A DNA stretch of 20,073 bases from a virus. The stretch covers positions 1 through 20,073 of IMG/VR virus record IMGVR_UViG_3300042290_000775; one strand, given 5' to 3'. Below the pieces are notes generated by a model, which was given only the letters and a program-made list of their open reading frames with translations, was not told the DNA's origin and ran no database searches. Below are positions 5,207-20,026 of the stretch, one piece after another (position 1 is the stretch's first letter; each line of letters opens with the position of its first letter). A program made the position numbers and the translations under genes.

Positions 5207-5935
5207 TCAGGGTTTCCGGGCGTAGCTTCCGAGCGGCGCGGCATTCAACTCTCCACGGGACACGCGCCATTGCGGGAGGTGCTTGTCGAGGATGGCGATG
5301 AAGCGGTCGTTGTGGTGGCGCTCGATCAAGTGGGCCAGTTCGTGGGCGATGACGTATTCGAGGCACTGCGCGGGCTTCTTGGCGAGTTCGAGGTTCAGCC
5401 AGATGCGGCGGGCGGCGGGGTTGCAGCTTCCCCACTTGGTTTTCATTTTCTTGATGCCCCACGCAGCGGCGCGGACACCGAGGGCCTTCTCCCACTTTTT
5501 CAAGAGCGGCGGGACCGCATCGCGGAGTTGCTGGCGATACCATTGGTGAAGCACTTCAACGCGCTGATCCACGGTGGCGTCGGGACGGACATGGAGTTCC
5601 ATCGTGGTTCGGTTGCGCAGCACGATCGCGGCGGGGCCGGAAGTGCGGATGAGGCGCAAACGGTATCGCGTGCCGAGAAAATAGTGGCTCTCGCCGCGCA
5701 CCATCTCGCGCTCGGACTGACGGGGTTGGGCCGCGAATCTCGCCCGCTGGCGTTTGATCCAGCCGAGCTTGCCGATCACCGCCAGCCGCACGGCTTCATC
5801 CGTCACGGCCATCGGTGCGGCGACGCGCACGCGCCCGTGTGGGGGATAGACGCCGAGGTGCAGGTTTTTGATGCCTTTGCGGACAATCTGCACGGGCAGG
5901 CCGCTCACCACGATCTGGTGGTCGTCAGTATTCAT
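5207..5935 (-). CDS. YgjP/SprT-like zinc metallopeptidase (DUF45)
   Basis: A 242-residue protein of the YgjP/WLM-like gluzincin family. It has the HELAH zinc motif at residues 198-202 (glutamate 199 catalytic), followed by ERHHNDRF, whose H207 or H208 would be the third ligand, and the family's KTKWGSC signature at 165-171. The N-terminal half (PVQIVRKGIKNLHLGVYPPH, then VRVAAP and the GWIKRQR helix) matches the family's usual lead-in. Length is normal. Its start lies inside the end of hsdR (11-bp overlap at 5925-5935), so the genes are co-translated. Such peptidase genes commonly ride with type I restriction operons. Whether the enzyme trims HsdR, clears DNA-protein crosslinks like SprT, or does something else is not known from sequence. 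Confidence 0.9.
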   Translation of the reverse strand: MNTDDHQIVVSGLPVQIVRKGIKNLHLGVYPPHGRVRVAAPMAVTDEAVRLAVIGKLGWIKRQRARFAAQPRQSEREMVRGESHYFLGTRYRLRLIRTSGPAAIVLRNRTTMELHVRPDATVDQRVEVLHQWYRQQLRDAVPPLLKKWEKALGVRAAAWGIKKMKTKWGSCNPAARRIWLNLELAKKPAQCLEYVIAHELAHLIERHHNDRFIAILDKHLPQWRVSRGELNAAPLGSYARKP

Positions 5936-8900
5936 CCTGTTGCTTTACCAGTTCGAGGATTCGGTCCACGCGCTCGTCATCGGACTCGGGGGTTTGCTCG
6001 CCCGCAGGTGGCCCTTCACGAACGACGGAGGAAGTCACGGCACCGCCCAGCGCCGCTTTGATCGCGTTCCTCACTGCCTTCAATTTGAACGGATTATTGC
6101 GCCAATCATCCTGTCGCTTGGTGGCATCCACGGCAAGCGCGAGGGCCTCGTCCTTGCCGAGGTTGTCGTAGAGCGCACGTTTGCCGGGTGTGGCAAGGCT
6201 CGCGGGATAGGCGGCACCCGTGGCGGGGCTTTTCACCTTCTTCGTCAGCTCGACGATTTTTTGCAGATATTCCTCGTAGGCGATGGCCTCCTGCCGCCGC
6301 TGCTGGATCAATGCGTCGAGCAGCTTCGACATTTCCTCGTAGTACTTCGGATTGATCGGCGATTCGTCCACAATGAGCTTGCGGACGTTGTTCTCGATGG
6401 TTTCGGCGACGGCGTTCTTGTTCTTTTGAATCCCCTTCGGCAGTCCCTTCACCGCATCGGCCCCGCGCTCCACGATCAGTTCGATCAGGGACATGTCGTC
6501 GAAGGATGAAATCTTCTCGCTCTCCTCGGCGCGGATGTAGGCGTCGATCAGGTGCCGCATGGCGGGCTCGTACTGCTTGAGGTCGATGGCATCGCTGCTG
6601 TGCACCTTCACTTCGCTTCGGAGATTCTCGTAGAACGTCACTTCCTTCTTCACGGCCTCCGCCTCCGCGTCGCTGTAACCGGCCTCGGTCATCTCGCTGG
6701 CGATGTCCGCGTAGGCGCGCACGAGTGCCGCGACGTGTTTGTAGAGGGAAAGGCGCTGCGGTTCGTTCGCCTTGAGTTGCTCGGCGTTGCCGGGGTCTTT
6801 CGATGAGAAGTAGCGGAAGTATGCCTGCCGATCGTGTGGCGCTTCGACCGGCTCGCAGAGGGCGCGCACGGATTCCAAGGCTTCTTCCAGACGCTTCCGC
6901 GCCTTGCCGAGCCGATCTTCGAGCAGGCCCGCCACGTCCTCCTTGTCGTAGCCGTCCAGTGCGCCGGACGTGTAGTCATGCACCGCGCCTTCGAGGCTCT
7001 TGAACAGATCCTTGTAGTCGATGATGTAGCCGTATTCCTTGTCGTCGCCGTCGAGCCGGTTCACGCGGCAGATCGCTTGGAAAAGCCCGTGGTCGCGCAT
7101 CTGCTTGTCGATGTAGAGAAACGTGGCCGGGGGCGCGTCGAAGCCGGTGAGCAGCATGTCCACGACGATGAGCAGCTTCATCTGCCCCGGCTCGTCGATG
7201 AACTTCTTCTTCACCGCCGTCTCGAACTCCTCCACGCGGTTCACCGCCTTCTCCGGCGGCTCATTGAACCACTCGGCCAGCATCTTCTGGTAGATGCCGT
7301 ACTGGTGCAGCTTCTCGGTTTTGCCCTCGCCGGATTCCTCGCCCTTGATGGCTGCCGCCGTGGGCACGTAGGAAGTCACGATGGCGCATTTACCGTGCAG
7401 GTCGGTCTGGTCGAACAGCTCGAAGAACTTGCACGCCTCGTAGATGCTCCCGGCCACGAGGATCGCGTTGCCGCGCCCGCTTTTCAGCCGGTCGCACTTT
7501 TCCATGTCCATCATGATGTCGGCCACGATGTTCTCCAGCCGGTCCCGGCTCGACAGCACCTTCTGCATCGTGCCCCAGCGTTGCTTGAGCTGCGCCTTGG
7601 CGAGCGGCGTCAGGCCCTTCGTCTTGAGTTCAAACCATTCATCAATCTTCTTCGGCGAGGTGATGCGCTGGTCGATCTCCCGCGCCTCGTAGCGCAAATC
7701 CAGCACCACCTTGTCCTTCACCGCCTCGTCGAATTTGTAGGTGTGGATGTAGCCGCCGAAGACCTCGATGCTCCGCTGCTTGTCGTCTTTGAGCAATGGC
7801 GTGCCGGTGAAGCCGATGAACACCGCGCCGGGCAGAATCTCCTTCATCGCCTCGTGCAGCTCGCCGGAATTGGTGCGGTGGCACTCGTCCACGAAGACAT
7901 ACAGCGTTCCCTTGGGTTTGAAGTTCGGCGGGAGCTTCGCCTTCATCTGCCGGATGAACTCGTCCACATCGCCCTCCTCCTCGTCGTTCTTCTTGCTGCC
8001 AAATTTGTGGATGAGGGAGCAAATCAACCACGGCTTGGCGGCGTTCAGCGTGCCCACGAGGTCCGCGCCGCTCTTGGTGCGGTAGATGTCCTCGCTCACG
8101 CCCTTGAAGACCCCCTCGATCTGCGCGTCGAGTTCCGTGCGGTCGGTGATGATGAGCACGCGGGGATCGGTCACGTTCTCCCGAATCCACTTCGCCAGCC
8201 ACACCATCACGAGGCTCTTGCCGCTGCCCTGCGTGTGCCAGAGGATGCCGCCCTCCCGGCGCTTCACGTAAGCTTGCGAGGCACGCACGCCGAAATACTG
8301 GTTGTGCCTGCATAGCTTCTTCACCCCGGCGTCGAACACGATGAAGTCGTGGATCAGTTCGAGGAAGCGGGCCTTGCCGCACATCTGGATCAACCCCCGA
8401 TCCAGCAGATTCTCCACGTCGCTCTCCTCCTTCCACGTCAGGTAATACTTCTCCTTGGTCCCGGTGGTGCCGTAGCGCAGCCCCTCCGTGTCGTTGCCCG
8501 CCATCACCCATTGCATCGTGGAGAAAAACGGCTGGATGAACTCCTTGTTCTGGTTGTCGAGATTCTGCCGGATGCCCGTGGAGACGGACACCGTGGACCG
8601 TTTCAATTCCAGCACGCCCAGCGCGATGCCGTTCACGTAGAGCACGATGTCCGGGCGCTTGTCGTGCGCCTTGGTGTTGGCGGCGGTCACGGTCACTTCC
8701 TCGGCGATGGCGAAGTCGTTGTTCTCCGCGTCCTTCCAGTCCACGACAAAGACGGTGACGTTGTTCTCGCCCACATCGGGCCGCACCTTCACCCCGTAGC
8801 GCAGCAGGTCATACACGGCGCGGTTGCGGTCGTAGAGGCTCTTGCTCGTGTCGCCCGCCGTCCGTTCCAGTTCGCGGAGCACCTTGGCGATGAGGGCGTC

Positions 8901-9065
8901 CGCGTGCCCCTGCCGCCTGAGCCACGCCCGCAGCAGCTCCGGCTCGATGTTGCGGTTGTTCTCCCGGTCGGTCCAGTCGCCGAGGTAGTCGTAGCCCAGC
9001 GTCTCGCGGAAGAGCTTCACCACCCGCCGCTGGGTTCTCTTTTCGATCTGTCCGATGGTGCTCAT
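5925..9065 (-). CDS. hsdR: Type I restriction enzyme, endonuclease/translocase subunit R
   Basis: A 1046-residue subunit that cuts DNA after ATP-driven translocation when the HsdMS complex meets an unmethylated site. Visible motifs in order: PD-(D/E)xK nuclease with D139 and E153-x-K155 (RPDIVLYVNG ... LELKRS), followed by the Q-rich QNLDNQNKEF helix; SF2 motor with Walker A HTQGSGKS (277-284), DECH box (393-396), motif III FTGTP (419-423), and motor domain 2 with DMLLTGFDAP; a helical C-terminal region for assembly. The start at 9065 is chosen because it gives the standard MSTIGQIEKRTQ opening and overlaps the upstream stop (ATGA at 9065-9062). The open frame extends 35 codons upstream, but into the kinase gene. 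All key residues are intact, so the enzyme should be active. Confidence 0.97.
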   Translation of the reverse strand: MSTIGQIEKRTQRRVVKLFRETLGYDYLGDWTDRENNRNIEPELLRAWLRRQGHADALIAKVLRELERTAGDTSKSLYDRNRAVYDLLRYGVKVRPDVGENNVTVFVVDWKDAENNDFAIAEEVTVTAANTKAHDKRPDIVLYVNGIALGVLELKRSTVSVSTGIRQNLDNQNKEFIQPFFSTMQWVMAGNDTEGLRYGTTGTKEKYYLTWKEESDVENLLDRGLIQMCGKARFLELIHDFIVFDAGVKKLCRHNQYFGVRASQAYVKRREGGILWHTQGSGKSLVMVWLAKWIRENVTDPRVLIITDRTELDAQIEGVFKGVSEDIYRTKSGADLVGTLNAAKPWLICSLIHKFGSKKNDEEEGDVDEFIRQMKAKLPPNFKPKGTLYVFVDECHRTNSGELHEAMKEILPGAVFIGFTGTPLLKDDKQRSIEVFGGYIHTYKFDEAVKDKVVLDLRYEAREIDQRITSPKKIDEWFELKTKGLTPLAKAQLKQRWGTMQKVLSSRDRLENIVADIMMDMEKCDRLKSGRGNAILVAGSIYEACKFFELFDQTDLHGKCAIVTSYVPTAAAIKGEESGEGKTEKLHQYGIYQKMLAEWFNEPPEKAVNRVEEFETAVKKKFIDEPGQMKLLIVVDMLLTGFDAPPATFLYIDKQMRDHGLFQAICRVNRLDGDDKEYGYIIDYKDLFKSLEGAVHDYTSGALDGYDKEDVAGLLEDRLGKARKRLEEALESVRALCEPVEAPHDRQAYFRYFSSKDPGNAEQLKANEPQRLSLYKHVAALVRAYADIASEMTEAGYSDAEAEAVKKEVTFYENLRSEVKVHSSDAIDLKQYEPAMRHLIDAYIRAEESEKISSFDDMSLIELIVERGADAVKGLPKGIQKNKNAVAETIENNVRKLIVDESPINPKYYEEMSKLLDALIQQRRQEAIAYEEYLQKIVELTKKVKSPATGAAYPASLATPGKRALYDNLGKDEALALAVDATKRQDDWRNNPFKLKAVRNAIKAALGGAVTSSVVREGPPAGEQTPESDDERVDRILELVKQQDEY

Positions 9066-9814
9066 GCTTCGCCCGGGGAAATCTTTTCCCAGACCGCGTG
9101 TTTGAACCACGCTGGCATCTGATCGGTTTTCATTTCCAGCTCCTTGCCATCGGTGACCTCCGCCAACCATGTGCGTTCCTGCCCCTCGCCGGAGTTGTCG
9201 AAAATGTAGGCCCGGTTCGTATTGCGGATCGCATCCATCAGCAGGCCGAGCGAGGCGTGGTAACGCTTCACGATTTTGTCCTCCGGCACGGCGTGACCGC
9301 GCAGCCGCACGCGGTTCCGCACTCGCGAGATGTTGATGTCCGGATCGTCGGTCGCGATGAAATACAGATAGGTCCGGTAGCCGAGCCGCTGCGCCTGCTC
9401 CAGCAGCGCCACTTTGCCGCGATGCGACATCACCGTTTCGAGCGTGAACGAAGCCCGTGCATCGAGCAGCCGTTGCCGGAAAAAATCTGCGGTGACGGAT
9501 GCCACGTAGGAATTCACCGCCACACGATCAAAAATCAGCCGTCCTTCCGATACCGACACCTTCTCCGCCACATCGGCGAACCCCGTCGCTTTCAGGAAAT
9601 CTGAACCTCGGAAAAACGCCCGCGCCTCCGCCTCCGTCGTGCTCACACCGTAGGCCGCGAGATCGAGGAAGCCCGGCGTTTTCATCTCCCCTTCCATTTC
9701 ATCCGGGTTGAGATACACGCCGAGAAGTTCCGGGCGGAGAACCTTCTTCAGCGCACTTTTGCCCGAGCCGTTCGGCCCCCCAAACATGCGCAGTCGCGGG
9801 ATCGCATCGCTCAC
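9062..9814 (-). CDS. Zeta-toxin-like P-loop kinase inside the hsd operon
   Basis: A 250-residue P-loop protein of the zeta-toxin / predicted ABC-type ATPase (COG4185-like) group. Walker A is GGPNGSGKS (12-20); NPDE at 36-39 and FTLETVMSH at 123-131 match the acceptor/catalytic region of zeta kinases; the RVRLRGHAVPEDKIVKRYHA lid with its arginines is at 168-187. Classical zeta toxins phosphorylate UDP-N-acetylglucosamine and are held by an epsilon antitoxin; many relatives of this length have untested substrates. Upstream it overlaps a small antitoxin-like gene by 4 bp, and downstream hsdR by 4 bp, so it is produced with the restriction enzyme. That placement suggests addiction or an abortive back-up for the R-M system, which is inference. 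All motifs appear intact. Confidence 0.85.
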   Translation of the reverse strand: MSDAIPRLRMFGGPNGSGKSALKKVLRPELLGVYLNPDEMEGEMKTPGFLDLAAYGVSTTEAEARAFFRGSDFLKATGFADVAEKVSVSEGRLIFDRVAVNSYVASVTADFFRQRLLDARASFTLETVMSHRGKVALLEQAQRLGYRTYLYFIATDDPDINISRVRNRVRLRGHAVPEDKIVKRYHASLGLLMDAIRNTNRAYIFDNSGEGQERTWLAEVTDGKELEMKTDQMPAWFKHAVWEKISPGEA

Positions 9815-10038
9815 CGAATGGCTACCTTCGTTCCGGTTTGGATGGGAGTCGGCGGCTCGATCTTTTTCACCACCTTGCGCGAGCCGTCGGGGAAGACCTC
9901 GTAGATCACACCGTTCTCGCTCTGGAGCACACTCTGGCCCGATGCGAGCGTCTCGTTTCGTGCAGTGGTGAATGCCAGTCCGGACAGCGCCGGAAACTTC
10001 GCCTCAAGTTCGTGGATGATCTTTTCAGACTCGCTCAT
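9811..10038 (-). CDS. Small partner (antitoxin-like) of the zeta-like kinase
   Basis: A 75-residue protein: an N-terminal helix (MSESEKIIHELEAKFPALSG), a middle segment (RNETLASGQSVLQSENGVIY) and a C-terminal strand pair with KKIEPPTPIQTGTKVAIR. Small proteins with the GQSVLQ-x-ENG-x-IY and DGSRK-x-VK-x-IEPPTP pattern regularly precede COG4185-type kinases in bacterial genomes, as I recall, and are assumed to be their antitoxin or partner. It is unlike the classical three-helix epsilon antitoxin. The stop overlaps the kinase start by 4 bp, so both are made in a fixed ratio. The ATG at 10038 lies within the last codons of the 32-aa ORF upstream. Antitoxin function is inferred from position. 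Confidence 0.75.
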   Translation of the reverse strand: MSESEKIIHELEAKFPALSGLAFTTARNETLASGQSVLQSENGVIYEVFPDGSRKVVKKIEPPTPIQTGTKVAIR

Positions 10039-10123
10039 GGTCGTTCGGATTGGCTTCCACCATACGCCGGTAAAATTTTAAGGCAATCCTGCCCTTCGTG
10101 ATCGTTGCGCTTTCGCAGCTCAT
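10025..10123 (-). CDS. 32-aa coupled ORF between hsdS and the kinase pair
   Basis: The ATG at 10123 overlaps the hsdS stop in an ATGA junction, and the stop (10027-10025) lies 14 bp inside the next gene. The 32 residues (MSCESATITKGRIALKFYRR followed by MVEANPNDHERV) form a basic helix and an acidic end with no stop or poor-quality stretch. Such overlap on both sides suggests it is translated, either as a mini-protein or to carry ribosomes from hsdS to the kinase pair. No family recognised. Confidence 0.45.
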   Translation of the reverse strand: MSCESATITKGRIALKFYRRMVEANPNDHERV

Positions 10124-11310
10124 ACCAGCCGCGTCCTCCCGGTGAGGAGTTCCTGCATCATGGCCTGCTTGAGGGCGCGGGTCTTCTCTCGCCGATGCTC
10201 CAACGCCGCAAGCTCCGCGTCCATGTCCCCCAGCACCTCGGCGATCGCGGTCTGTTCGGGGACGGGTGGCACATTCACCGTCAAGCTCCTGAACTTGCCC
10301 AGCGAGATGACGTAGCGAGTTCCGCCCCCATCGCAAATTGTCTCAGCTTGGTTCAGGAAAGAACGGGGCTTGAAAGCGTAGGTGCGGAAGCGCAAATCCC
10401 ACGGCTCTTTCAAACGAAGACGGACCACATGATAGCTGTAGGCCGCATCGGAGATGTCCTCCATCGCTACGGCGGAGTTTGCGATGTCGTCGCGTGTCTC
10501 GGACGATGGTGTGAAGAACACATCGCCTTTCTGCACAGCACAGCGTCGGGCTTGGTGCGGCTGCGCGGTCACCCAATGGTTGAGGTCTTCGGAGAAGATG
10601 AAGGCCCTGCGGTAAACATCCATGTAGTTCAACAGGCGAACTGGCGTTTCATCTGGCCGGGACTTCTTGTCCACGCCTGAGCCGCTTATTTCGCCAAGCT
10701 CCCCAAGCCGCTTCACCTCCCACTCGCCGTGGAAGCCGGGGAGGCGGGTTTGGCCGGTGAGGAGTTGCTGCATGGCGGCCTGTTTGAGGTTGCGCTTCTT
10801 GGCGATGAGCCGGTCCAGCCCGCCCAGCAGCCCATCCACATCGCTCAACGCCGTAGCGATGGCGCGTTGTTCGGGCTCGTGTGCAGGAGACGGAAATTCA
10901 AATCCTGTGAGATCTTCCTTCTTGATGTAGGGAATCGAAGTCCCGATTTTTCCAAGTCCGAGGGAACCGGCGAGCCGGTAATTCAACTGATGCCAGATGT
11001 AGCGAACAGGGGTGGCGAACTTGTGAACAACGTAGGTCCGTTGGTAAGCCTCGAAGCGCCCCTTGTAGTAATTCAAATTTCCGACTTCGCCATTCCCCGC
11101 AATCAGTATCGCCTCCGTGTCGAATGAGTAGTGGTCGCTGAACGTGTGAGTTCGTGAGCACGTAAAAAAGGGGTATTCACCCGCAGGATTGCCCTCGTTG
11201 ACATCCTTCCTACCCGTCGTGATTGCAGTGAGGCTTCCAAGTTGCTTCACGTCCCACTCCTCCGGGATGACGCCGATCTCTGTTTGCTTGTAGCCGTGTT
11301 TCAGTTCCAT
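10120..11310 (-). CDS. hsdS: Type I restriction-modification specificity subunit S
   Basis: A 396-residue subunit that sets the DNA target of the HsdM methyltransferase and HsdR nuclease. Two target-recognition domains alternate with two long helices: TRD1 about 15-145, central helix EPEQRAIATALSDVDGLLGG to LKQAAMQQLLTGQTRL (145-190), TRD2 about 194-348, C-terminal helix PEQTAIAEVLGDMDAELAAL to LKQAMMQELLTGRTRL (350-395). The GVIPEEWDVKQL opening is standard for the family and fixes the start at 11310, although the frame is open 24 codons further upstream. The target is bipartite but cannot be read from the protein. The repeated helix ends are also a 35-bp DNA direct repeat (10139-10173 and 10754-10788, 30 matches), a place where TRDs could be swapped by recombination. 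Both halves look complete. Confidence 0.96.
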   Translation of the reverse strand: MELKHGYKQTEIGVIPEEWDVKQLGSLTAITTGRKDVNEGNPAGEYPFFTCSRTHTFSDHYSFDTEAILIAGNGEVGNLNYYKGRFEAYQRTYVVHKFATPVRYIWHQLNYRLAGSLGLGKIGTSIPYIKKEDLTGFEFPSPAHEPEQRAIATALSDVDGLLGGLDRLIAKKRNLKQAAMQQLLTGQTRLPGFHGEWEVKRLGELGEISGSGVDKKSRPDETPVRLLNYMDVYRRAFIFSEDLNHWVTAQPHQARRCAVQKGDVFFTPSSETRDDIANSAVAMEDISDAAYSYHVVRLRLKEPWDLRFRTYAFKPRSFLNQAETICDGGGTRYVISLGKFRSLTVNVPPVPEQTAIAEVLGDMDAELAALEHRREKTRALKQAMMQELLTGRTRLV

Positions 11311-11598
11311 GAGCGAATAGACCCCTAGCCCTGTTTGAGCCGCGTAAATTGCTTTGGCCATGATGCGGGCGGCTTGAGGCACATCGCGTCAGCACGCACA
11401 AATGCGCAGACCTTCGGCATGGAATGACTCGCGCAGATGTCGGGATTGGTGTGGCGGCAACCTTCCGTTTGAGTTGCCGTATCCTTCGGTGCCAGAGGGG
11501 CGTGAAAGATGCCCTGCTGTCGTTGTTTCGGTGTCATGGCGCTTCGGTTGTTTCAGCGGATCAAAGGCGGGGTGGCATAGTTTTTCAATGGCGGGAAC
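11311..11598 (-). other. hsdM-hsdS gap without a firm gene
   Basis: In most type I operons hsdM and hsdS overlap or nearly touch; here 288 bp separate them. A 70-codon minus-strand frame (11325-11537, MTPKQRQQGIFHAPLAPKDT...) fills most of it, but its composition (many C, P, T, H) and lack of a ribosome-binding site make it doubtful. Plus-strand frames in the region are no better. It may be the scar of a lost gene or hold an internal promoter for hsdS and the kinase genes; no boxes are recognisable. Confidence 0.4.
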
Positions 11599-14061
11599 TC
11601 ACGCGGTGCAGCCCATCTTCTGGAGGTGGCCATCCACGCGGGCGGCGAGCGCGGCCACTTCGGCGGTGAGCTGCGGCAGCGGGGTGGCATAGCGTTCGGC
11701 GAGCTGGCGGATGCGTCCGGTGAGGGTCTGCGAGACGCGGTCCAGCTCGCCCTGCACGGCGGCGGCAATCGTGGCCAGCCATTTGTCGTCCACCACGAGG
11801 GTCCGGATCTCGTCCTCGGTGAGTTGGCCGTATTTTGCGGCGACCTTTTCCATGAGGGCGTCCTGCGCGGCCTTGAGCTTCTCGCCGGTGTCGGCTTCCT
11901 GCTCGGTGAGGGCGAGGTAGTCTTGCAACGCCTTGCGTTCGTCAGCGGCTTCGGCGTCTTTCTTTATATCCTTCAGCCGTGCGGCGGCGGAGGCTTTGGT
12001 GAGCTTGTCCTTGTCGTTCTTCGCGTCCTCCAGCAGGCCGCCTTCGCCGCCGTGTTCCTCGGCCATTTCCTCGATCTGCTGCGCGAGGGCGGCGAGCTGC
12101 GCCTCCAGCGTGTCGATGGCGGCTTGCTCCTTCGCGTAGTAGCGGGCGATGACGAGCGCGGGCGGGATCAGCTCGGCTTTATACTTCTGCCTGCCGATGG
12201 CGAAATCGGGCTTCACCTTCGTCTTCCGGTCCTTGTCCTCGGTGATGAGCCGGAGCGTGGCGGCCTCGCGCCAGCCGTCGCCCACGATCATGTAAACGTC
12301 GTCCTGCATGGTCCCGGCCCAGTAGTCCATGAGATGCTGATACACGTCGTAGGGATCGAGCAGCGGGGCTTTCTCGAAGGTGGCGAGCAGATCCTCGGAG
12401 AGCAGCTCGATGAGCGCCTTTGGCCTGCCGCCCTTCGCGATGCCCTTCATGCGCGGGGTGCTGGCTGACTTCCATTTCGCAAACAGCTTCACCGCCGATT
12501 CGTTGAACGCGGTGAACTCCGCGTGGGCGAAGATGGCGGCCTTGATGTCCGCGATGGGCACCCGGAGCTGGCTGGAGCCGGGGCGGTCGCCCGCATTGAA
12601 CAGCGCAGCGCGGACGCCGGGGAGGACCTGCCAGTAGCGTTCGAGAGCGTCGATGTCGCGCTCCGGGATGCCGCCGCGCAGGTGGGCCGTGATGTCCTGC
12701 AAATCCTCCGGCTCGGTGCTGTCGATGTAGCGCGGGAGGTTGAGGTTGAAGTCGTTCTTCGGGTCGCTGATCTCGGTGAGCGACACCATGCGCGAGTAGC
12801 GGGGGATCTCGGCGAGGCGCGTGAAGGCGTCCACGATGCGGTGAATGTCCTGCTCGCGGAGGCGGTTCTTGTTGCCGTCCTTCCGGAAGCCCTTGGAGGC
12901 GTCGATCATGAAGATGCCCTTGCGGGCGGCGGCGTTTTCCTTGTCGATGACGATGATGCAGGCGGGGATGCCGGTGCCGTAAAAGAGGTTCGCGGGCAGG
13001 CCGATGATGCCCTTGATGGTGCCGCGCCGGACGATCTCCTTGCGAATCCTGGCCTCCGCGCCGCCCCGGAAGAGGACGCCGTGCGGGAGGATGATCCCGG
13101 CTTTTCCGGTGCTCTTGAGGCAGGCGAGGATATGCAGCATGAAGGCGTAGTCGCCATTCTTCTGCGGGGGAATGCCGAAGCCGAAGCGCCCGTAGAGGTC
13201 GTTGGCCGGATCGAAGCCGTTGCTCCACGCCTTGGTGGAGAAGGGGAAATTCGCCACGATGAAGTCGAAGGTCTTGAGCGCGCCGGTCTGGGCGTCCTTG
13301 AAATACGGGGCGGAGAGCACGTTGTCCTTCCAGATTTCCGCCGTGGGGCAGTCGTGGAGGATCATGTTCATGCGCGCCAGCGCGGCGGTGGCGTTGTCCA
13401 TTTCCTGCCCGTAGAGCGCGAGGTCGAAGCCGGTCCGGTTCTTCGCTTCATCGTGCGCCTTCAGCAGCAGCGACGCCGAGCCGCAGGTGGGATCGTGGAC
13501 GGACTGGCTGGCGCTTTTCGCGCTGCCGATGCCGATGACCATCGAGATGACGCGGGAGACTTCCGACGGGCTGAGGAACTGCCCCTTGCTCTTGCCCGAC
13601 TCGATGGCGAAATGCCGCATGAGGTATTCGTAGGCGTCGCCCAGCAGGTCGTCGCCCTCGGCGCGGTTGCCCCGGAAATCGAGCGAGGGATTGTCGAAGA
13701 TGGAGACGAGATTCGAGAGGCGATCCACCATGTCCTTGCCCTTGCCGAGCTTGTCCGCGTCGTTGAAGTCCGCCACGTCGATCACGCCCTTGAGGTCATT
13801 CGCCTCCGCGAGCCTGCCGATGATCTTGTTGATCTTGTCGCCAATTTCCTTGTCGCCCTTCAGCGCCACCATGTCCGCGAAACTCCCGCCCGCGGGGACA
13901 TCCACGAGCGCATCCGCCTTCCCCGCGTACTTGTCCGAGACGTACTTCACGAACAGGAGCACGAGCACGTAGTCCTTGTACTGCGAGGCATCCATGCCGC
14001 CGCGCAGTTCATCGCAGCTTTGCCAGAGGGAGGAGTAGAGTTCGGATTTCTTGAGGGCCAT
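11599..14061 (-). CDS. hsdM: Type I restriction-modification methyltransferase subunit M (long form)
   Basis: An 820-residue N6-adenine methyltransferase subunit. The N-terminal helical domain opens MALKKSELYSSLWQSCDELR. S-adenosylmethionine motif I is DPTCGSASLL (190-199), preceded by GQFLSPSEVSR (160-170). Motif IV is NFPF (271-274) instead of the usual NPPF. The later part includes ILPHGVLFRGGAE and the FNLNLPRYID segment typical of HsdM. The C-terminal extension from about residue 645 holds long charged coiled-coil helices (LEAQLAALAQQIEEMAEEHG onward); HsdM proteins of about 500 residues lack it, but a long class of about 800 exists. ATG at 14061 is chosen because it begins the family-like sequence; the frame stays open to 14907, but that extension is arginine/proline-rich and overlaps inverted repeats. 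First gene of the operon; its promoter must lie in the palindrome-rich region upstream. Confidence 0.95.
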   Translation of the reverse strand: MALKKSELYSSLWQSCDELRGGMDASQYKDYVLVLLFVKYVSDKYAGKADALVDVPAGGSFADMVALKGDKEIGDKINKIIGRLAEANDLKGVIDVADFNDADKLGKGKDMVDRLSNLVSIFDNPSLDFRGNRAEGDDLLGDAYEYLMRHFAIESGKSKGQFLSPSEVSRVISMVIGIGSAKSASQSVHDPTCGSASLLLKAHDEAKNRTGFDLALYGQEMDNATAALARMNMILHDCPTAEIWKDNVLSAPYFKDAQTGALKTFDFIVANFPFSTKAWSNGFDPANDLYGRFGFGIPPQKNGDYAFMLHILACLKSTGKAGIILPHGVLFRGGAEARIRKEIVRRGTIKGIIGLPANLFYGTGIPACIIVIDKENAAARKGIFMIDASKGFRKDGNKNRLREQDIHRIVDAFTRLAEIPRYSRMVSLTEISDPKNDFNLNLPRYIDSTEPEDLQDITAHLRGGIPERDIDALERYWQVLPGVRAALFNAGDRPGSSQLRVPIADIKAAIFAHAEFTAFNESAVKLFAKWKSASTPRMKGIAKGGRPKALIELLSEDLLATFEKAPLLDPYDVYQHLMDYWAGTMQDDVYMIVGDGWREAATLRLITEDKDRKTKVKPDFAIGRQKYKAELIPPALVIARYYAKEQAAIDTLEAQLAALAQQIEEMAEEHGGEGGLLEDAKNDKDKLTKASAAARLKDIKKDAEAADERKALQDYLALTEQEADTGEKLKAAQDALMEKVAAKYGQLTEDEIRTLVVDDKWLATIAAAVQGELDRVSQTLTGRIRQLAERYATPLPQLTAEVAALAARVDGHLQKMGCTA

Positions 14062-15353: not shown

Positions 15354-15578
15354 TCAGGATACTTTGAACAGAACTGCCGAGCGCCCGGTGCGTCGTGCCC
15401 ATTCCGCGATGATGTCATCCCGCCAAGGCTCGTATTCGCTGAGGAATTGCTTGTGCAGCCTCTTGTCCGTCGGTGGCGGCGTGCTCCAGAGGCAGTCAAA
15501 TTTCCCGGTGGTTCCGTTGTGCCGCATGGTGCAGGTGGTGCCGCAGGTCATCTTCAGTAAGTGTGTGGTGATGTTCAT
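15354..15578 (-). CDS. Small hypothetical protein downstream of rep
   Basis: 74 residues from the ATG at 15578: MNITTHLLKMTCGTTCTMRH, a W-containing middle (KFDCLWSTPPPTDKRLHKQF) and an acidic helical end (EYEPWRDDIIAEWARRTGR). The C-terminal helix looks like real protein. C35, C39 and C52 of the longer frame (three cysteines near a histidine) might bind metal, but the set is incomplete. The frame is open to 15647, but that extension reads through the inverted repeat and iteron zone, so the shorter start is preferred. Function unknown; position suggests a role linked to replication or its control. Confidence 0.5.
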   Translation of the reverse strand: MNITTHLLKMTCGTTCTMRHNGTTGKFDCLWSTPPPTDKRLHKQFLSEYEPWRDDIIAEWARRTGRSAVLFKVS

Positions 15579-15601
15579 ATTTGGTTTGGGGTGGTTGTTC
15601 C

Positions 15602-15740
15602 GGGAAAGTCTCCCCGACTCGCTGAGAGACAGACACCTCCCGGCCATACAAGTATAGGCCGGGGAAGTGTGTCTCTCGGGTCTGGCTGACGAGACTTTCC
15701 CAAACGCTGGAAAAGTCGGGAAAGTCTCTGGGAAAGTCTC
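15602..15740. repeat. Iteron-like cluster at the end of rep, candidate origin
   Basis: The 11-mer GGGAAAGTCTC occurs exactly at 15602-15612, 15718-15728 and 15730-15740 and, inverted, at 15691-15701. A relative (GGAAAAGTC) lies at 15709-15717. Two copies are 12 bp apart, near one helical turn, and the inverted copy with its neighbour forms a dyad. The last copy touches the stop codon of the replication ATPase gene. Rep-bound iterons beside the rep gene, with a palindrome between them, are typical of origins in plasmids and satellites; origin function is inferred. Confidence 0.65.
15624..15677. repeat. Long palindrome inside the iteron cluster
   Basis: GAGAGACAGACACCTCCCGGCC (15624-15645) pairs with GGCCGGGGAAGTGTGTCTCTC (about 15657-15677), with one bulge and a few mismatches, around the AT-rich loop ATACAAGTATA. 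It could be the rep transcript's terminator, the unwinding part of an origin, or a single-strand initiation hairpin. Confidence 0.6.
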
Positions 15741-17355
15741 ACTTCATGCCCTCCAAAGTCGCCTGCCGATGGCGCGAGATGCGGACTTCCGCGTTGGTTC
15801 TTGGTCGCTTGTGATGCGCTACGAAGAGTCTCTCGGCGTGCAGCATCTCGGCAAGCGTCGCTTCGGCTCCATGTTTGGTGAATCCGCATTCCCGCGCTTT
15901 TTGAAGCAGCGTCACTTTGGGGATCTCGCCTTGCATCGGGACAAGCGCCCACATGTCGTCGGTCGTCTTGCTCGGCTGGCGACGCTTCTTGTCGGCAATT
16001 GCTTTGCCGAGCGCTGCGATGTCCTGCTCGTCTGCGTCCCTCCAATAAATGCCGTCTCTCGCGTGCCCGAAGCAGCGGAAGATGGTCGGCTCACCGTTCT
16101 CGCCAGTCCAACCGATGCGGCTTCCGCGCTTGGCTGCTATGAATCGAAAAAGACCGTCTGCGTGCGTGGGATCAATGACGAGGATTGCTCGTGCCCAATT
16201 TGTCACGTCTGCGCTCCCTGCGCCGCTATACATCCAGTCGCTCGCACGCCAATTCGACGTGTCGCGGTTCGTGACCTTGGGTGTGTGGTGATTCACGATG
16301 CAGGCGACGCGATGCTTTGCCAGTAGCGGATTCAGCCCGGTGCGGAGAAAGGCGGCGGTCTGCTCGGCGTCGTTGATGTCCGCGCCCAAGTATGCGAGCA
16401 ACGGGTCGATCCTGAGCAAGTCGAACTGCATTTTGGCGAGCCTTCGATCCACGTAGCGGAGAAACTCCGCGCCAGTGCGCCCGCATTCCGTTTCGTAAAA
16501 GACATTTCCGCGGACTTGCTCGCGGTCTTCTTCGGTGAGGCGCAAGCCCTTGATCACTCCGTCGCGCATCTCCGCCAAGTCTTCGGCGTCGTTCTCCGCC
16601 TGTATGGTGAGGATGCGAAGCGGGCGTGCAGGACGGATGTCGAATGCGGGACGGCCAAGGCTCCAAAGAACATCCTGTTGGACGCTCGCGGAAGATTTGC
16701 CGATCCCGCTCGGGCCGACGAAAATTCCCGCACCGCCGATGCACAAAAAGCGGTTGCCTAGCAAGTTTGCCCTCGGATCGGTCGCGCCCGCTGAAATGTC
16801 CATGAGGGACACGAGCGGCGCCGGCTTGGGTGCCAGGCGTGCCGCTTCCCCAATGGCGCGCTCCGCTTCGCGGCTTACCTCCTCCACCTCCTCGCCGCCA
16901 TCGGAGGCTCCGCGCTTGAGGGTCTCTGCGATTCCGATCAGGTGGCGGCGGCGAGCCTGATCCCGAACGATCCCGATGTAGTGGGGAGTGGTCGCGGCGG
17001 TCGCCAAGTGGGTGAACAGTTCGCTGATCGCTGCGGCACCGCCAACCTGATCGAGCTTCCCGCCGTCGCGCAGCTGCTGTGCGATGGTGATGAAGTCCGG
17101 CGTCTTGCCTTCAATGATGATGCCTGTGATCGTGTCGAAAATGATTCCGTGCGCGGAAATGTAGAATTGCCGCGCGTCAAGGTTTGCCTCGGCGCATAGC
17201 TGGAAAACTTGGGCCGGTGCCAGGAGCAGCGATGCGAGGACGCCCTTCTCCGCCTCCGGTGACTGCGGGATTTCACGCTCTGGCGTCTTGCCATTGGTGG
17301 TCTGCGGTGAGGGCGGCTTCAGCGTGTCGGCGCGCGTGCGGGCGTGCGCGCTCAT
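15739..17355 (-). CDS. Replication ATPase: DnaB-type N-domain fused to RepA-like P-loop domain
   Basis: A 538-residue protein. Residues 30-135 resemble the DnaB helicase N-terminal domain (PQSPEAEKGVLASLLLAP, FYISAHGIIFDTI, LATAATTPHYIGIVRDQARR). Residues 195-400 form a RepA/AAA_25-type RecA-like ATPase with Walker A GPSGIGKSS (214-222), Walker B FDLLRID (311-317) and NHHTPK (355-360). Residues from about 466 look like a winged helix (KVTLLQKARECGFTKHGAEA). RepA-like hexameric helicases start replication of plasmids, satellites and phages. It begins at the base after the stop of the AlpA-like gene, so the two are coupled, and ends in the iteron cluster, its probable binding site. A full DnaB C-terminal domain with linker helix is not obvious, so RepA-like is the better name. 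All ATPase residues are present. Confidence 0.85.
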   Translation of the reverse strand: MSAHARTRADTLKPPSPQTTNGKTPEREIPQSPEAEKGVLASLLLAPAQVFQLCAEANLDARQFYISAHGIIFDTITGIIIEGKTPDFITIAQQLRDGGKLDQVGGAAAISELFTHLATAATTPHYIGIVRDQARRRHLIGIAETLKRGASDGGEEVEEVSREAERAIGEAARLAPKPAPLVSLMDISAGATDPRANLLGNRFLCIGGAGIFVGPSGIGKSSASVQQDVLWSLGRPAFDIRPARPLRILTIQAENDAEDLAEMRDGVIKGLRLTEEDREQVRGNVFYETECGRTGAEFLRYVDRRLAKMQFDLLRIDPLLAYLGADINDAEQTAAFLRTGLNPLLAKHRVACIVNHHTPKVTNRDTSNWRASDWMYSGAGSADVTNWARAILVIDPTHADGLFRFIAAKRGSRIGWTGENGEPTIFRCFGHARDGIYWRDADEQDIAALGKAIADKKRRQPSKTTDDMWALVPMQGEIPKVTLLQKARECGFTKHGAEATLAEMLHAERLFVAHHKRPRTNAEVRISRHRQATLEGMK

Positions 17356-17544
17356 TTACGCGACGGCCTTTCGCTCGAATTTGTCCAACGCTGCGCGGAC
17401 GCGCTCCGGTGAGAATCTGATCGTCCGATGCCCCAAGACCAGCGCGGGGATTTTTTTTGCGTGATAAAGGGACCGCAACGTGCGGACCGGCAAGCCGAGT
17501 TCAGCGGATAGCCCTTGGAAGTTTACGAGCAGACGGGTGTTCAT
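17356..17544 (-). CDS. AlpA/excisionase-type HTH regulator
   Basis: A 62-residue winged HTH of the MerR-like AlpA / excisionase / HTH_17 type: VNFQGLSAELGLPVRTLRSL as helix-turn-helix, YHAKKIPALVLGHRTIRFSP as wing, and ERVRAALDKFERK as the last helix. Such proteins bind near att or early promoters and act as directionality factor, activator of the early operon, or both, as AlpA does in gammaproteobacterial satellites. It sits between the 345-aa gene and the rep gene, whose start follows its TAA without a gap. Two inverted repeats upstream (17547-17558 and 17578-17606) suggest autoregulation. Excisionase versus replication regulator cannot be told apart from sequence. Confidence 0.85.
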   Translation of the reverse strand: MNTRLLVNFQGLSAELGLPVRTLRSLYHAKKIPALVLGHRTIRFSPERVRAALDKFERKAVA

Positions 17545-17638: not shown

Positions 17639-18676
17639 TCACGCAGCTAGCGCATGGAGAGCTTTGCGGACTCGCTCCGTGATGCGAAGCGCGAGTAGTG
17701 GATCGTAGTCTGGTGTTTTAGACCTGTCTGCATGAGACCCAGCCTTGCCGCCATACTGTAGTTGATCTCCCTCGCCCAACATTTCTGCTCCTTCTTTCAT
17801 TCCACCCTGTACCACCAGATGCCAGAGAACCAGGCCTTCGACCACCCGCTCGTAATTGCCCAAGGACTCTGCTCGCAGTTCGTCGGGAATATCAGTGCAG
17901 TATTCCATCCACCACGGCCAAATCAGCTCTCGCCCTCCGGGTGTTCGGTATGACTGCACTTGCATGGTTTTTCGCATCCGCGACGGCGCACGATTTTCGG
18001 TTTTCTCCAGTGTCGAAGCCATTTGCAGTGTCCAAAACGCGAGGGCGTACCGATTGTTGTAACGCGCCGCCTCGCACGCCGCCTCCACCCACCTCCGCCA
18101 GTCGCCGTCTGACTGATCGCCCTTCTTCTGCCGTGTTCCTGCACGACTTTCGGGACGTGTGACGATATTCGCCTCGGTTCCGACCCCCGCGCAAGTGACG
18201 TTGGTCGGCCAGGCAGGGATTGTTTTTCGTGCTCGCCTGAGTTCGGTACTGCCGCCAAGTTGATTGAGTTTTTGCACCAGCTCGAACGTGAACTGGCATA
18301 GTCCTTCAGCAGCTTTCGTGGGATCGGTGGTGTTGATCCAATCAGCGGTTTCTCTTGCCCATACGGTCACTGCCACAACGTCGTCTCCGTTGAGTTTAGC
18401 AAGCATGTCTTTAATGGTGAACGGCTGGATAACACTGCGCCCCTCCGCCAGTGAAATTTCGAGCTGCTCGATTGGCAAAAAGCTCAGTGCTCCTGCTGCG
18501 ATACGCTGCTTTGCAGCGAGCGGGTTCGTCGGCGGTTGAATCTCCGGGGGGGAATCGCTTGCGGGGCGATTGTTGCCGCTGCAAATCTGCACTCTCTTGA
18601 CTGCCACTGCTGGCGCTGGCGACTCCGGTGCCCGCGAACGCGGAGTTTTCTTCGTCGGCTTTTTGTTTTTCTTCAT
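17639..18676 (-). CDS. 345-aa unknown protein coupled to the integrase gene
   Basis: I do not recognise a family. The N-terminal 70 residues are disordered: lysine-rich at first (MKKNKKPTKKTPRSR), then proline-rich. A folded, mostly helical body begins near residue 75 (FLPIEQLEISLAEGRSVIQP) and contains TVWARETADWIN, a tryptophan-rich patch with WPWWMEYCTDIPDEL, and a helical end (LLALRITERVRKALHALAA). No membrane span, signal peptide or catalytic motif is visible. Its ATG overlaps the integrase stop (ATGA, 18676-18673), so it is made with the integrase, which suggests a role in recombination, regulation or early replication. The basic N-terminus would allow DNA binding. Frame and length show no damage. 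Confidence 0.8.
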   Translation of the reverse strand: MKKNKKPTKKTPRSRAPESPAPAVAVKRVQICSGNNRPASDSPPEIQPPTNPLAAKQRIAAGALSFLPIEQLEISLAEGRSVIQPFTIKDMLAKLNGDDVVAVTVWARETADWINTTDPTKAAEGLCQFTFELVQKLNQLGGSTELRRARKTIPAWPTNVTCAGVGTEANIVTRPESRAGTRQKKGDQSDGDWRRWVEAACEAARYNNRYALAFWTLQMASTLEKTENRAPSRMRKTMQVQSYRTPGGRELIWPWWMEYCTDIPDELRAESLGNYERVVEGLVLWHLVVQGGMKEGAEMLGEGDQLQYGGKAGSHADRSKTPDYDPLLALRITERVRKALHALAA

Positions 18677-19818
18677 GCGGCGGCCCTGCCGAGATGGATG
18701 ACTTTGCGGGCCTCGGTGGAGGGTCCGATCTGCCAGTAGCGTGCCGCGTCTTTCGGTTTCACCAACTCCCGGTAGTGCGCGAAGATTATCTGCGGGCTGT
18801 TTCCCATTTCCAGACTCACACGAGCGGCGTCGTGGCAGTCAGCAAGCCGATATGATGCGTAGCTGTGGCGCATCGCATTTGCCGGCCACGTCTTGAAGCC
18901 TGCACGGGCTTTGGCAGCGTCGAGGCGGTCGCGGAGTGCTACGGGAGCCACGGCACCGGCTCGGCGCGCCAGCGGTCGAATCCATGCGGCGAGATTTTCC
19001 GAGATCGGAATCAGGCGACGCGATCCGGTCTTTGCCTTCGCGCCCTTCACCTCGATATGTCCGCCGTCGAGATCCACTTCCGACCAGTCGAGCCGCTCCG
19101 CCTCGGCAGCGCGGAGGCCGGCGAACAGCGAGATTGCGACGAACGGCAGCGTGTCGGCGTCGCACGCGTTCAGCAGCGCGACGGCCTGCGTGCATGTCAG
19201 GATTTCCGGCGCGCCTCGTTTCACTTTTGCCTTGGCGGTGCGCTCTACCGGGTTTGCAACGGCGTAGCCTCGGGACACCGCGAAGTTGAAAAGGTTGTTG
19301 ATGACGGTGCGGTAGTTGTTGCGGGACTGAGGCGACAATTCGAGCGCGCGGAGCCAGTCATCGATCTGCGCCGTGCTCACGGTCGCGGCGTTCTGTTCAC
19401 CAAAGCTCTGCCCAAAGCGTGTCAGGCGGTCGCGCAGGTCGCGCAGGTGCCGCGGGCTGGCACCGTCTGTTTCCTTCGCTTTCAGCAACTCAGCGACAAT
19501 CTCGGCGACAGTGCCGCTTTTCGCCGATGCGTCCAGAAATGCGATGAAATGGTCGGTGGCGTCCTTGAGCGTCTTGCCGTGCGGCTCGAGCCGCACGTTG
19601 CATTCATCGGCCATCACGCGAAGCCATGAAGGGAACTCCGCGCCCTCACGCCCTTGGGCTTGAAATGCCAGTGTGCGGTTGCGGGTGAAGTTTTCCGCAT
19701 CACGCTTCGTGGTGAAAAACTTCCGCTTTCGTCTGCCGTTCTCGCGGAAGGTGACGATGAAATTCAGCGTCGGCCTGCTCGGGTCGTTGTATTCGCGGAG
19801 ACGGAAGGGCTTTCTCAT
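18673..19818 (-). CDS. int: Tyrosine-type integrase of the island
   Basis: From the ATG at 19818 a 381-residue site-specific recombinase. Residues 1-60 are an arm-binding-like N-terminal domain (MRKPFRLREYNDPSRPTLNF), 80-190 a SAM-like core-binding domain, 200-381 the catalytic domain. Catalytic residues: R235 (AGLRAAE), K263 (KAKTG), R317-H318 (AMRHSYASY) and nucleophile Y349 (FAHYREL). The first histidine of box II is asparagine (N314), and the later GH is GN (339-340), variants I have seen in related integrases. The frame is open to 19929, but the extra 37 codons cover repeated GTTGGCAC motifs and look non-coding, so 19818 is preferred. It should catalyse integration at the adjacent tRNA-Thr 3' end. 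A GTGCCAAC repeat directly before the ATG suggests self-control. Confidence 0.95.
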   Translation of the reverse strand: MRKPFRLREYNDPSRPTLNFIVTFRENGRRKRKFFTTKRDAENFTRNRTLAFQAQGREGAEFPSWLRVMADECNVRLEPHGKTLKDATDHFIAFLDASAKSGTVAEIVAELLKAKETDGASPRHLRDLRDRLTRFGQSFGEQNAATVSTAQIDDWLRALELSPQSRNNYRTVINNLFNFAVSRGYAVANPVERTAKAKVKRGAPEILTCTQAVALLNACDADTLPFVAISLFAGLRAAEAERLDWSEVDLDGGHIEVKGAKAKTGSRRLIPISENLAAWIRPLARRAGAVAPVALRDRLDAAKARAGFKTWPANAMRHSYASYRLADCHDAARVSLEMGNSPQIIFAHYRELVKPKDAARYWQIGPSTEARKVIHLGRAAA

Positions 19819-19862
19819 GTGCCAACCGTTGGCTTTTTGTTGGCACTTTACAAGCCTTTTTG
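19819..19862. promoter_or_regulatory. Putative integrase arm/operator sites, right end
   Basis: Three related half-sites: GTGCCAAC at 19819-19826 (inverted), GTTGGC at 19828-19833, which makes the dyad GCCAACCGTTGGC with the first (19821-19833), and GTTGGCAC at 19839-19846, continuing as GTTGGCACTT-N7-CTTTTTG exactly as at 140-163. They lie directly upstream of the preferred integrase start, so they may serve both in recombination and in repressing int. Confidence 0.55.
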
Positions 19863-19947
19863 CGTCAAAATGGGAAAATACCCGTTTGAATGAGTTTTGC
19901 CTCTCATTCGCCTGAGAGCCTGTATTCATGCGGTTTTCAGAGGGGAA

Positions 19948-20000
19948 ACGCTGGAGCCAGAGAAGGGGATTGAACCCTTGACCTGCGGTTTACGAAACCG
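19948..20000. repeat. attR: 53-bp direct repeat within intact tRNA-Thr
   Basis: Exact copy of 49-101, spanning the 3' 49 nt of the tRNA gene plus four bases beyond CCA. The island supplies this 3' end and so keeps the tRNA functional. Divergence from the left copy starts exactly at 20001, inside the tRNA's anticodon arm. Confidence 0.95.
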
Positions 20001-20026
20001 CTGCTCTACCACTGAGCTACTCTGGC
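19952..20026 (-). tRNA. tRNA-Thr (anticodon CGT), intact
   Basis: 75 nt with encoded CCA. Acceptor GCCAGAG pairs with CTCTGGC; D-stem GCTC/GAGC; anticodon stem GCGGT/ACCGC with loop TTCGTAA, hence CGT reading ACG (threonine); T-arm AAGGG-TTCAATC-CCCTT. All stems pair fully. It is the integration target: the part from the anticodon arm to CCA equals the att core. Confidence 0.95.

Follow-up and report, generated by a model that had tools for sequence, protein, structure and literature searches.

The 139-bp repeat cluster at the 3' end of the rep gene in the viral DNA analysed here (an IMG/VR record of 20,073 bases, referred to as the window) is very probably the cis-acting origin of replication, oriV, of a PICI-like integrative element, and would be bound by the winged helix predicted at the C-terminus of the Rep protein. 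The initial annotation had read the cluster as the origin of the island, and as far as the sequence tells this reading is supported, with clusters of rep-specific iterons and a hairpin located behind most distant rep homologs.

Repeats and hairpin at the 3' end of rep

In total, four exact copies of the iteron GGGAAAGTCTC were identified, located at 15602-15612 (+), 15691-15701 (-), 15718-15728 (+) and 15730-15740 (+), with no further exact copies elsewhere in the 20,073-base window. A degenerate copy, GGAAAAGTCGG, was recognised by direct reading of the sequence at 15709-15719 (+), and the three direct repeats, the single inverted repeat and the additional degenerate one that had been annotated initially were all confirmed at the same positions. 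The first copy is distal to rep, and its aligned position is kept in two loci with homologous rep genes, L001 and L042, which also have the identical spacing of 12 bp between the third and fourth copies. The second, inverted copy forms a second stem with 15730-15740 (or 15718-15728). The fourth copy overlaps by two bases with the rep stop codon on the minus strand (15739-15741), in agreement with the earlier statement that the cluster touches this codon.

The long palindrome with an AT-rich loop that had been noted previously was located at 15624-15677, where it is imperfect and has a TA-rich centre. On the rep strand it reads GAGAGACACACTTCCCCGGCC-tatacttgtat-GGCCGGGAGGTGTCTGTCTCTC, and its two arms (15624-15649 and 15652-15677) are 26 nt each, 73% complementary, and contain the iteron-like sequence ACTTCCCC. 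Single-strand folding of the cluster region gave z = -4.7, with none of 200 shuffles being equally good, and 2 of 200 shuffles of the whole window contained as many as four copies of one 11-mer within 200 bp. The A+T content of the cluster is 43%, as compared to 39% for the window, and TA-richness is confined to the loop of the hairpin. The centre of the cluster is a hairpin with a GC stem. A PICI-style AT-rich unwinding element beside the iterons was absent; the maximum A+T content of a nearby 80-mer, partly outside the cluster, was 51%. Matches to Rfam in the window were to tRNA only. GC skew, which had been suggested as a check, showed no switch or turning point at the cluster and gave no support for an origin at this site.

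The cluster could also be a regulatory site bound by Rep, with the iterons serving as operators that control rep or the following gene, the hairpin as a terminator or attenuator, and replication starting elsewhere. A small ORF starts just downstream, inside 15354-15647 (-), transcripts often end at hairpins, and plasmid iterons can also autoregulate. We nevertheless consider this explanation unlikely, since neither an intrinsic terminator with a T-tract nor a sigma-70-like promoter was found at the cluster, operators are normally located upstream of rep, and private iterons flanking a hairpin are more than a terminator requires. Moreover, the next gene downstream in L001 is convergent (9344-10708, -), leaving nothing to promote.

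Rep homologs and their 3' ends

A survey covering 289 genomes from the phylum and 213 from the order yielded 45 distinct usable rep loci, the window included, which are not fully independent, as some are from the same genome or from close relatives. The search with the single Rep protein against viral contigs identified no relative. In L001, a Spartobacteria MAG, rep is 70-71% identical in the matched part and the 3'-end arrangement is the same with nearly the same spacing, of which the 12/27-bp spacing of the iterons is identical. The rep genes of L042 (62% identity) and L043 (56%) are both followed by GAGACTTTCCC in the layout of the window, and the order (>, >, <, hairpin) is common to all four sequences, with the distal iteron copy present in L001 and L042 and not recognisable in L043. 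Both stems are supported by the alignment of the four sequences, in which seven pairs have changed on both sides; the hairpin is conserved in L001, L042 and L043, with two-sided changes that compensate each other. A lack of conservation of the repeats near homologous rep genes had been named beforehand as evidence that would speak against an origin; this test did not refute the reading, the iteron and the layout recurring behind reps of 56-71% identity.

No match to the exact iteron-pair patterns was found in the viral contigs. A looser tandem GAGACTTNCC pattern was present in eight viral stretches, none of which is beside a rep homolog, and these were rejected as chance or unrelated repeats. 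Two tandem iterons alone are therefore not diagnostic.

The reps with 29-50% identity mostly have a different, private iteron, but the 3' end of rep follows the same design. Private repeats located behind rep include AGTCGTCC (L051), ACTCGTCCT (L052), CAGTTATCC (L055), ACCATCAAG (L054), TGCTGCAAA (L053 and L058), CGAAAAAGA (L019 and L040) and TTGAGACAA (L016), among others, and they are usually found around or inside a hairpin in which a C-run and a G-run are separated by a short stretch of TA. The best hairpin at the 3' end exceeded all 49 shuffles in 27 of the 45 rep loci, as compared to only one of the 45 control regions, which were taken inside or upstream of rep. The C-run/TA/G-run apex was identified in 24 loci and two controls, and the difference in hairpins between loci and controls was highly significant (paired Wilcoxon, p = 2e-8). 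Iterons with at least five copies (9-mers, one mismatch) that beat all 20 shuffles were identified in 21 loci, for which the control is weaker than for the hairpins, since inner-rep regions sometimes reach high counts too. For 10 of the 24 longer loci, no segment away from rep equalled the iteron score of the rep 3' end. The number of iteron copies per 500-bp region was 6.3 in the own origin, 3.0 above 50% Rep identity and 0.13 at 30-40% identity, a comparison with some circularity, since each iteron had been selected by its home count; the non-circular part is that an iteron is common to related reps and missing from unrelated reps.

These patterns also bear on whether the cluster might be a site of partition (centromere) or of recombination, or a MITE that has inserted at the end of rep, all of which have inverted and direct repeats as well. 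We regard this as highly improbable, since the place behind rep recurs with unrelated repeat sequences. Furthermore, no ParA gene was recognised among the ORFs scanned, the borders of the element are in tRNA-Thr and not at the cluster, and a MITE would be multi-copy, whereas the iteron pair pattern occurs only once in the L001 genome.

At the sensitivity used, about half of the distant loci have only one of the two features or neither. In the several distant loci with neither an iteron cluster nor a hairpin, the origin could lie at another place, or the 3' end of rep may have been mis-assigned. In a viral clade of IMG/VR contigs (L080-L086) with about 49% Rep identity, a different gene is located directly behind rep, and neither iterons nor a hairpin were found at the rep 3' end. 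The arrangement is thus not universal, and the origin in this clade must lie elsewhere or work differently. The cluster is present at the rep 3' end of L087.

Some individual loci have features of their own. In L084, a 20-bp perfect TA-rich palindrome is located at 15427-15468. The rep homolog in L049 (G292:C17) has an internal TAG and a damaged 3' end, but its hairpin has survived and is identical in apex sequence to that of L056 from the same genome; L049 is a decaying copy of an element. A sub-family (L009, L034, L036, L037, L011, L035) combines GTCAAAACC/CTGTCAAAA repeats with a C-run/G-run hairpin, and in some of its members the cluster is inside the 3' coding end of rep. Integrases near the distant reps were searched for with a crude regular expression. 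Pfam confirmed the candidates in L001, L060, L063 and L077 only, and two others from this search were not integrases.

The element and its Rep protein

A perfect 53-bp direct repeat is present at 49-101 and 19948-20000, of which the latter copy is inside tRNA-Thr(CGT) (19952-20026). Given this location in the tRNA, the two att repeats bound an element of about 19.9 kb, which is essentially or almost complete and is flanked on each side by about 50-70 bp of host sequence. No match to the att sequence was found in the viral contigs. Next to the tRNA is a run of minus-strand genes, consisting of a tyrosine integrase (18673-19929; PF00589, phrog_1 E=2e-34), a 345-aa protein (17639-18676) for which Pfam, PHROGs, NCBIfam and PADLOC gave no match, a small MerR/excisionase-like (AlpA-like) protein of 62 aa (17356-17544) and rep (15739-17355), which was identified by Pfam, PDB profile, AF2 and Foldseek. 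The matches of the 62-aa protein are to phrog_66 (E=0.005, weak) and to TIGR01764 (E=5e-4, under the NCBIfam cut-off).

A complete type I restriction-modification system (HsdM, HsdS, HsdR) is encoded on the minus strand at 5925-14061; the gene of a zeta-toxin-like ATPase separates hsdR from hsdS, and other genes code for a YgjP metallopeptidase and a DUF932 protein. A terminase small subunit-like ORF is located at 604-1572 (+; phrog_4044 E=2e-22), the exact start of which is uncertain. No capsid or tail gene was recognised among the window ORFs scanned, and the presence of a TerS-like ORF on such an element suggests that it is a satellite of Verrucomicrobiota packaged by a helper. Judged by these predictions, the gene set is that of a PICI-like satellite or island with defence cargo. 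The parallel to satellites and integrative elements drawn in the initial annotation holds, in that att repeats, int, an ORF with weak matches to excisionases, rep and terS are combined as in PICI-type satellites.

Because a TerS-like protein is encoded on the element, the cluster might be thought to be a packaging (cos/pac) site for the element's own terminase small subunit. However, terS is 14 kb distant, and the cluster is tied to rep across loci of many make-ups, with a sequence that varies with rep, such that we give this explanation very little credence.

Residues 30-132 of Rep correspond to a DnaB N-terminal-like domain and residues about 183-361 to AAA_25, an RSF1010-RepA-like hexameric helicase core (both Pfam). 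A profile built from 24 Rep homologs recovered a single solved relative, RSF1010 RepA (1g8y, hmmsearch E=0.0015). In Foldseek, the Rep model was aligned to RepA with a TM-score of 0.74-0.78 on the target, and DnaB was aligned over a longer stretch. The C-terminus (residues 465-527) is predicted to be a winged helix, with a confident a-b-a-a-b-b topology in the AF2 model, where the pLDDT for most of the domain is around 90 or higher. The top Foldseek matches to this domain were mostly winged-helix proteins or regulators, although individually weak (best E = 0.03). In the relatives of Rep, AAA_25 is constant and the N-terminus is variable, containing DnaB-N, a DnaG zinc ribbon, PriCT_2 with Toprim, PriCT_1 or the NrS-1 HBD, all of which are replication modules.

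We infer from these features a route by which the element could replicate autonomously from the putative origin. The integrase and the putative excisionase would free a circle from tRNA-Thr, and the C-terminal winged helix of Rep would bind the GAGACTTTCCC iterons that flank the hairpin, such that at least two rings of the Rep helicase would be nucleated over the palindrome. The GC stem with its TA loop would then extrude or melt, and the RepA/DnaB-type motor would self-load onto the single strand thereby exposed. The host primase DnaG may be recruited by the DnaB-N-like domain, while the relatives may bring their own primase domains.

On balance, we lean slightly towards the view that these loci represent a widespread, apparently undescribed class of replicons in Verrucomicrobiota, in which an RSF1010-RepA/DnaB-type hexameric helicase, an initiator winged helix and interchangeable priming domains have been fused to give a single self-loading protein. 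Every lineage would have a private iteron-hairpin origin with the C-run/TA/G-run apex immediately behind the gene, and rep and ori would move together and co-diverge as a cassette. Origins are usually found experimentally, whereas in this case dozens of rep/ori cassettes that differ in their cognate repeats can be recognised in the sequence. In Verrucomicrobia, a phylum with few genetic tools, such cassettes are candidate replicons for vectors, and they allow tests of initiator-iteron specificity, incompatibility groups and the self-loading of RepA/DnaB-type motors. The finding supports the presence of a PICI-like, replicating satellite or island with a type I restriction system in Verrucomicrobiota, and the literature searched contained no paper on satellites with terS from Verrucomicrobia.

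Comparison with known replication systems

The SaPI Rep and SCCmec Cch2 proteins are experimentally studied helicases, the C-terminal domains of which bind iterons located immediately 3' of the respective genes (PMC7581432). Gram-negative PICIs have the same organisation, and the cloned pri-rep-ori region of EcCICFT073 has been assayed in E. coli for its ability to maintain a plasmid (PMC6092414). Similarities to SaPIs and PICIs include the putative origin immediately 3' of rep, the element-specific iterons, the gene order int - (putative) excisionase - rep - ori, the presence of terS on some members and, as predicted for the window, excision from a specific att site (PMC6092414). Of these PICI features, the window contains a specific att site with an adjoining integrase, terS and, in terms of anatomy only, an origin with iterons directly 3' of rep. 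However, the two iteron sets of PICIs flank an AT-rich region, whereas the iterons of the cluster are associated with a GC-stem hairpin and flank no AT-rich stretch, and the cluster is thus not a textbook PICI origin. The core of Rep, which is of the RSF1010-RepA/DnaB type (AAA_25), may be a further difference from SaPI Rep.

In SCCmec, the Cch2 helicase uses its C-terminal domain to bind repeats that immediately follow its gene, as predicted for Rep of the window, self-loading has been proposed, and the putative origin contains inverted repeats (possible hairpins) as well as direct repeats (PMC7581432). It differs in the helicase class (the D5 family is discussed in PMC7581432), in its short AAGTG iterons and in the host phylum. 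In the Sulfolobus plasmid pRN1, too, a stem-loop is located 3' of rep, which codes for a multidomain protein (primase-helicase-winged helix). This stem-loop is variable in sequence, conserved in shape and required for replication (PMC4234260). Unlike Rep of the window, pRN1 has an SF3 helicase and an archaeo-eukaryotic primase, and its single large stem-loop is not accompanied by an iteron array.

The helicase core of Rep corresponds to RepA of the IncQ plasmid RSF1010, both by profile and by fold. The oriV of RSF1010 consists of iterons, which are 20 bp long, and hairpin priming sites, and RepA, RepB' and RepC are three separate proteins, whereas one fused protein in the window appears to do the work of all three. 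The iteron layout of SaPI, SCCmec and PICI elements and a pRN1-like stem-loop are thus combined with an RSF1010-RepA/DnaB-type motor, which points to an oriV for a self-loading Rep. Origins of this general kind are known; what is new is the type of helicase, the hairpin and the breadth of the arrangement in Verrucomicrobiota.
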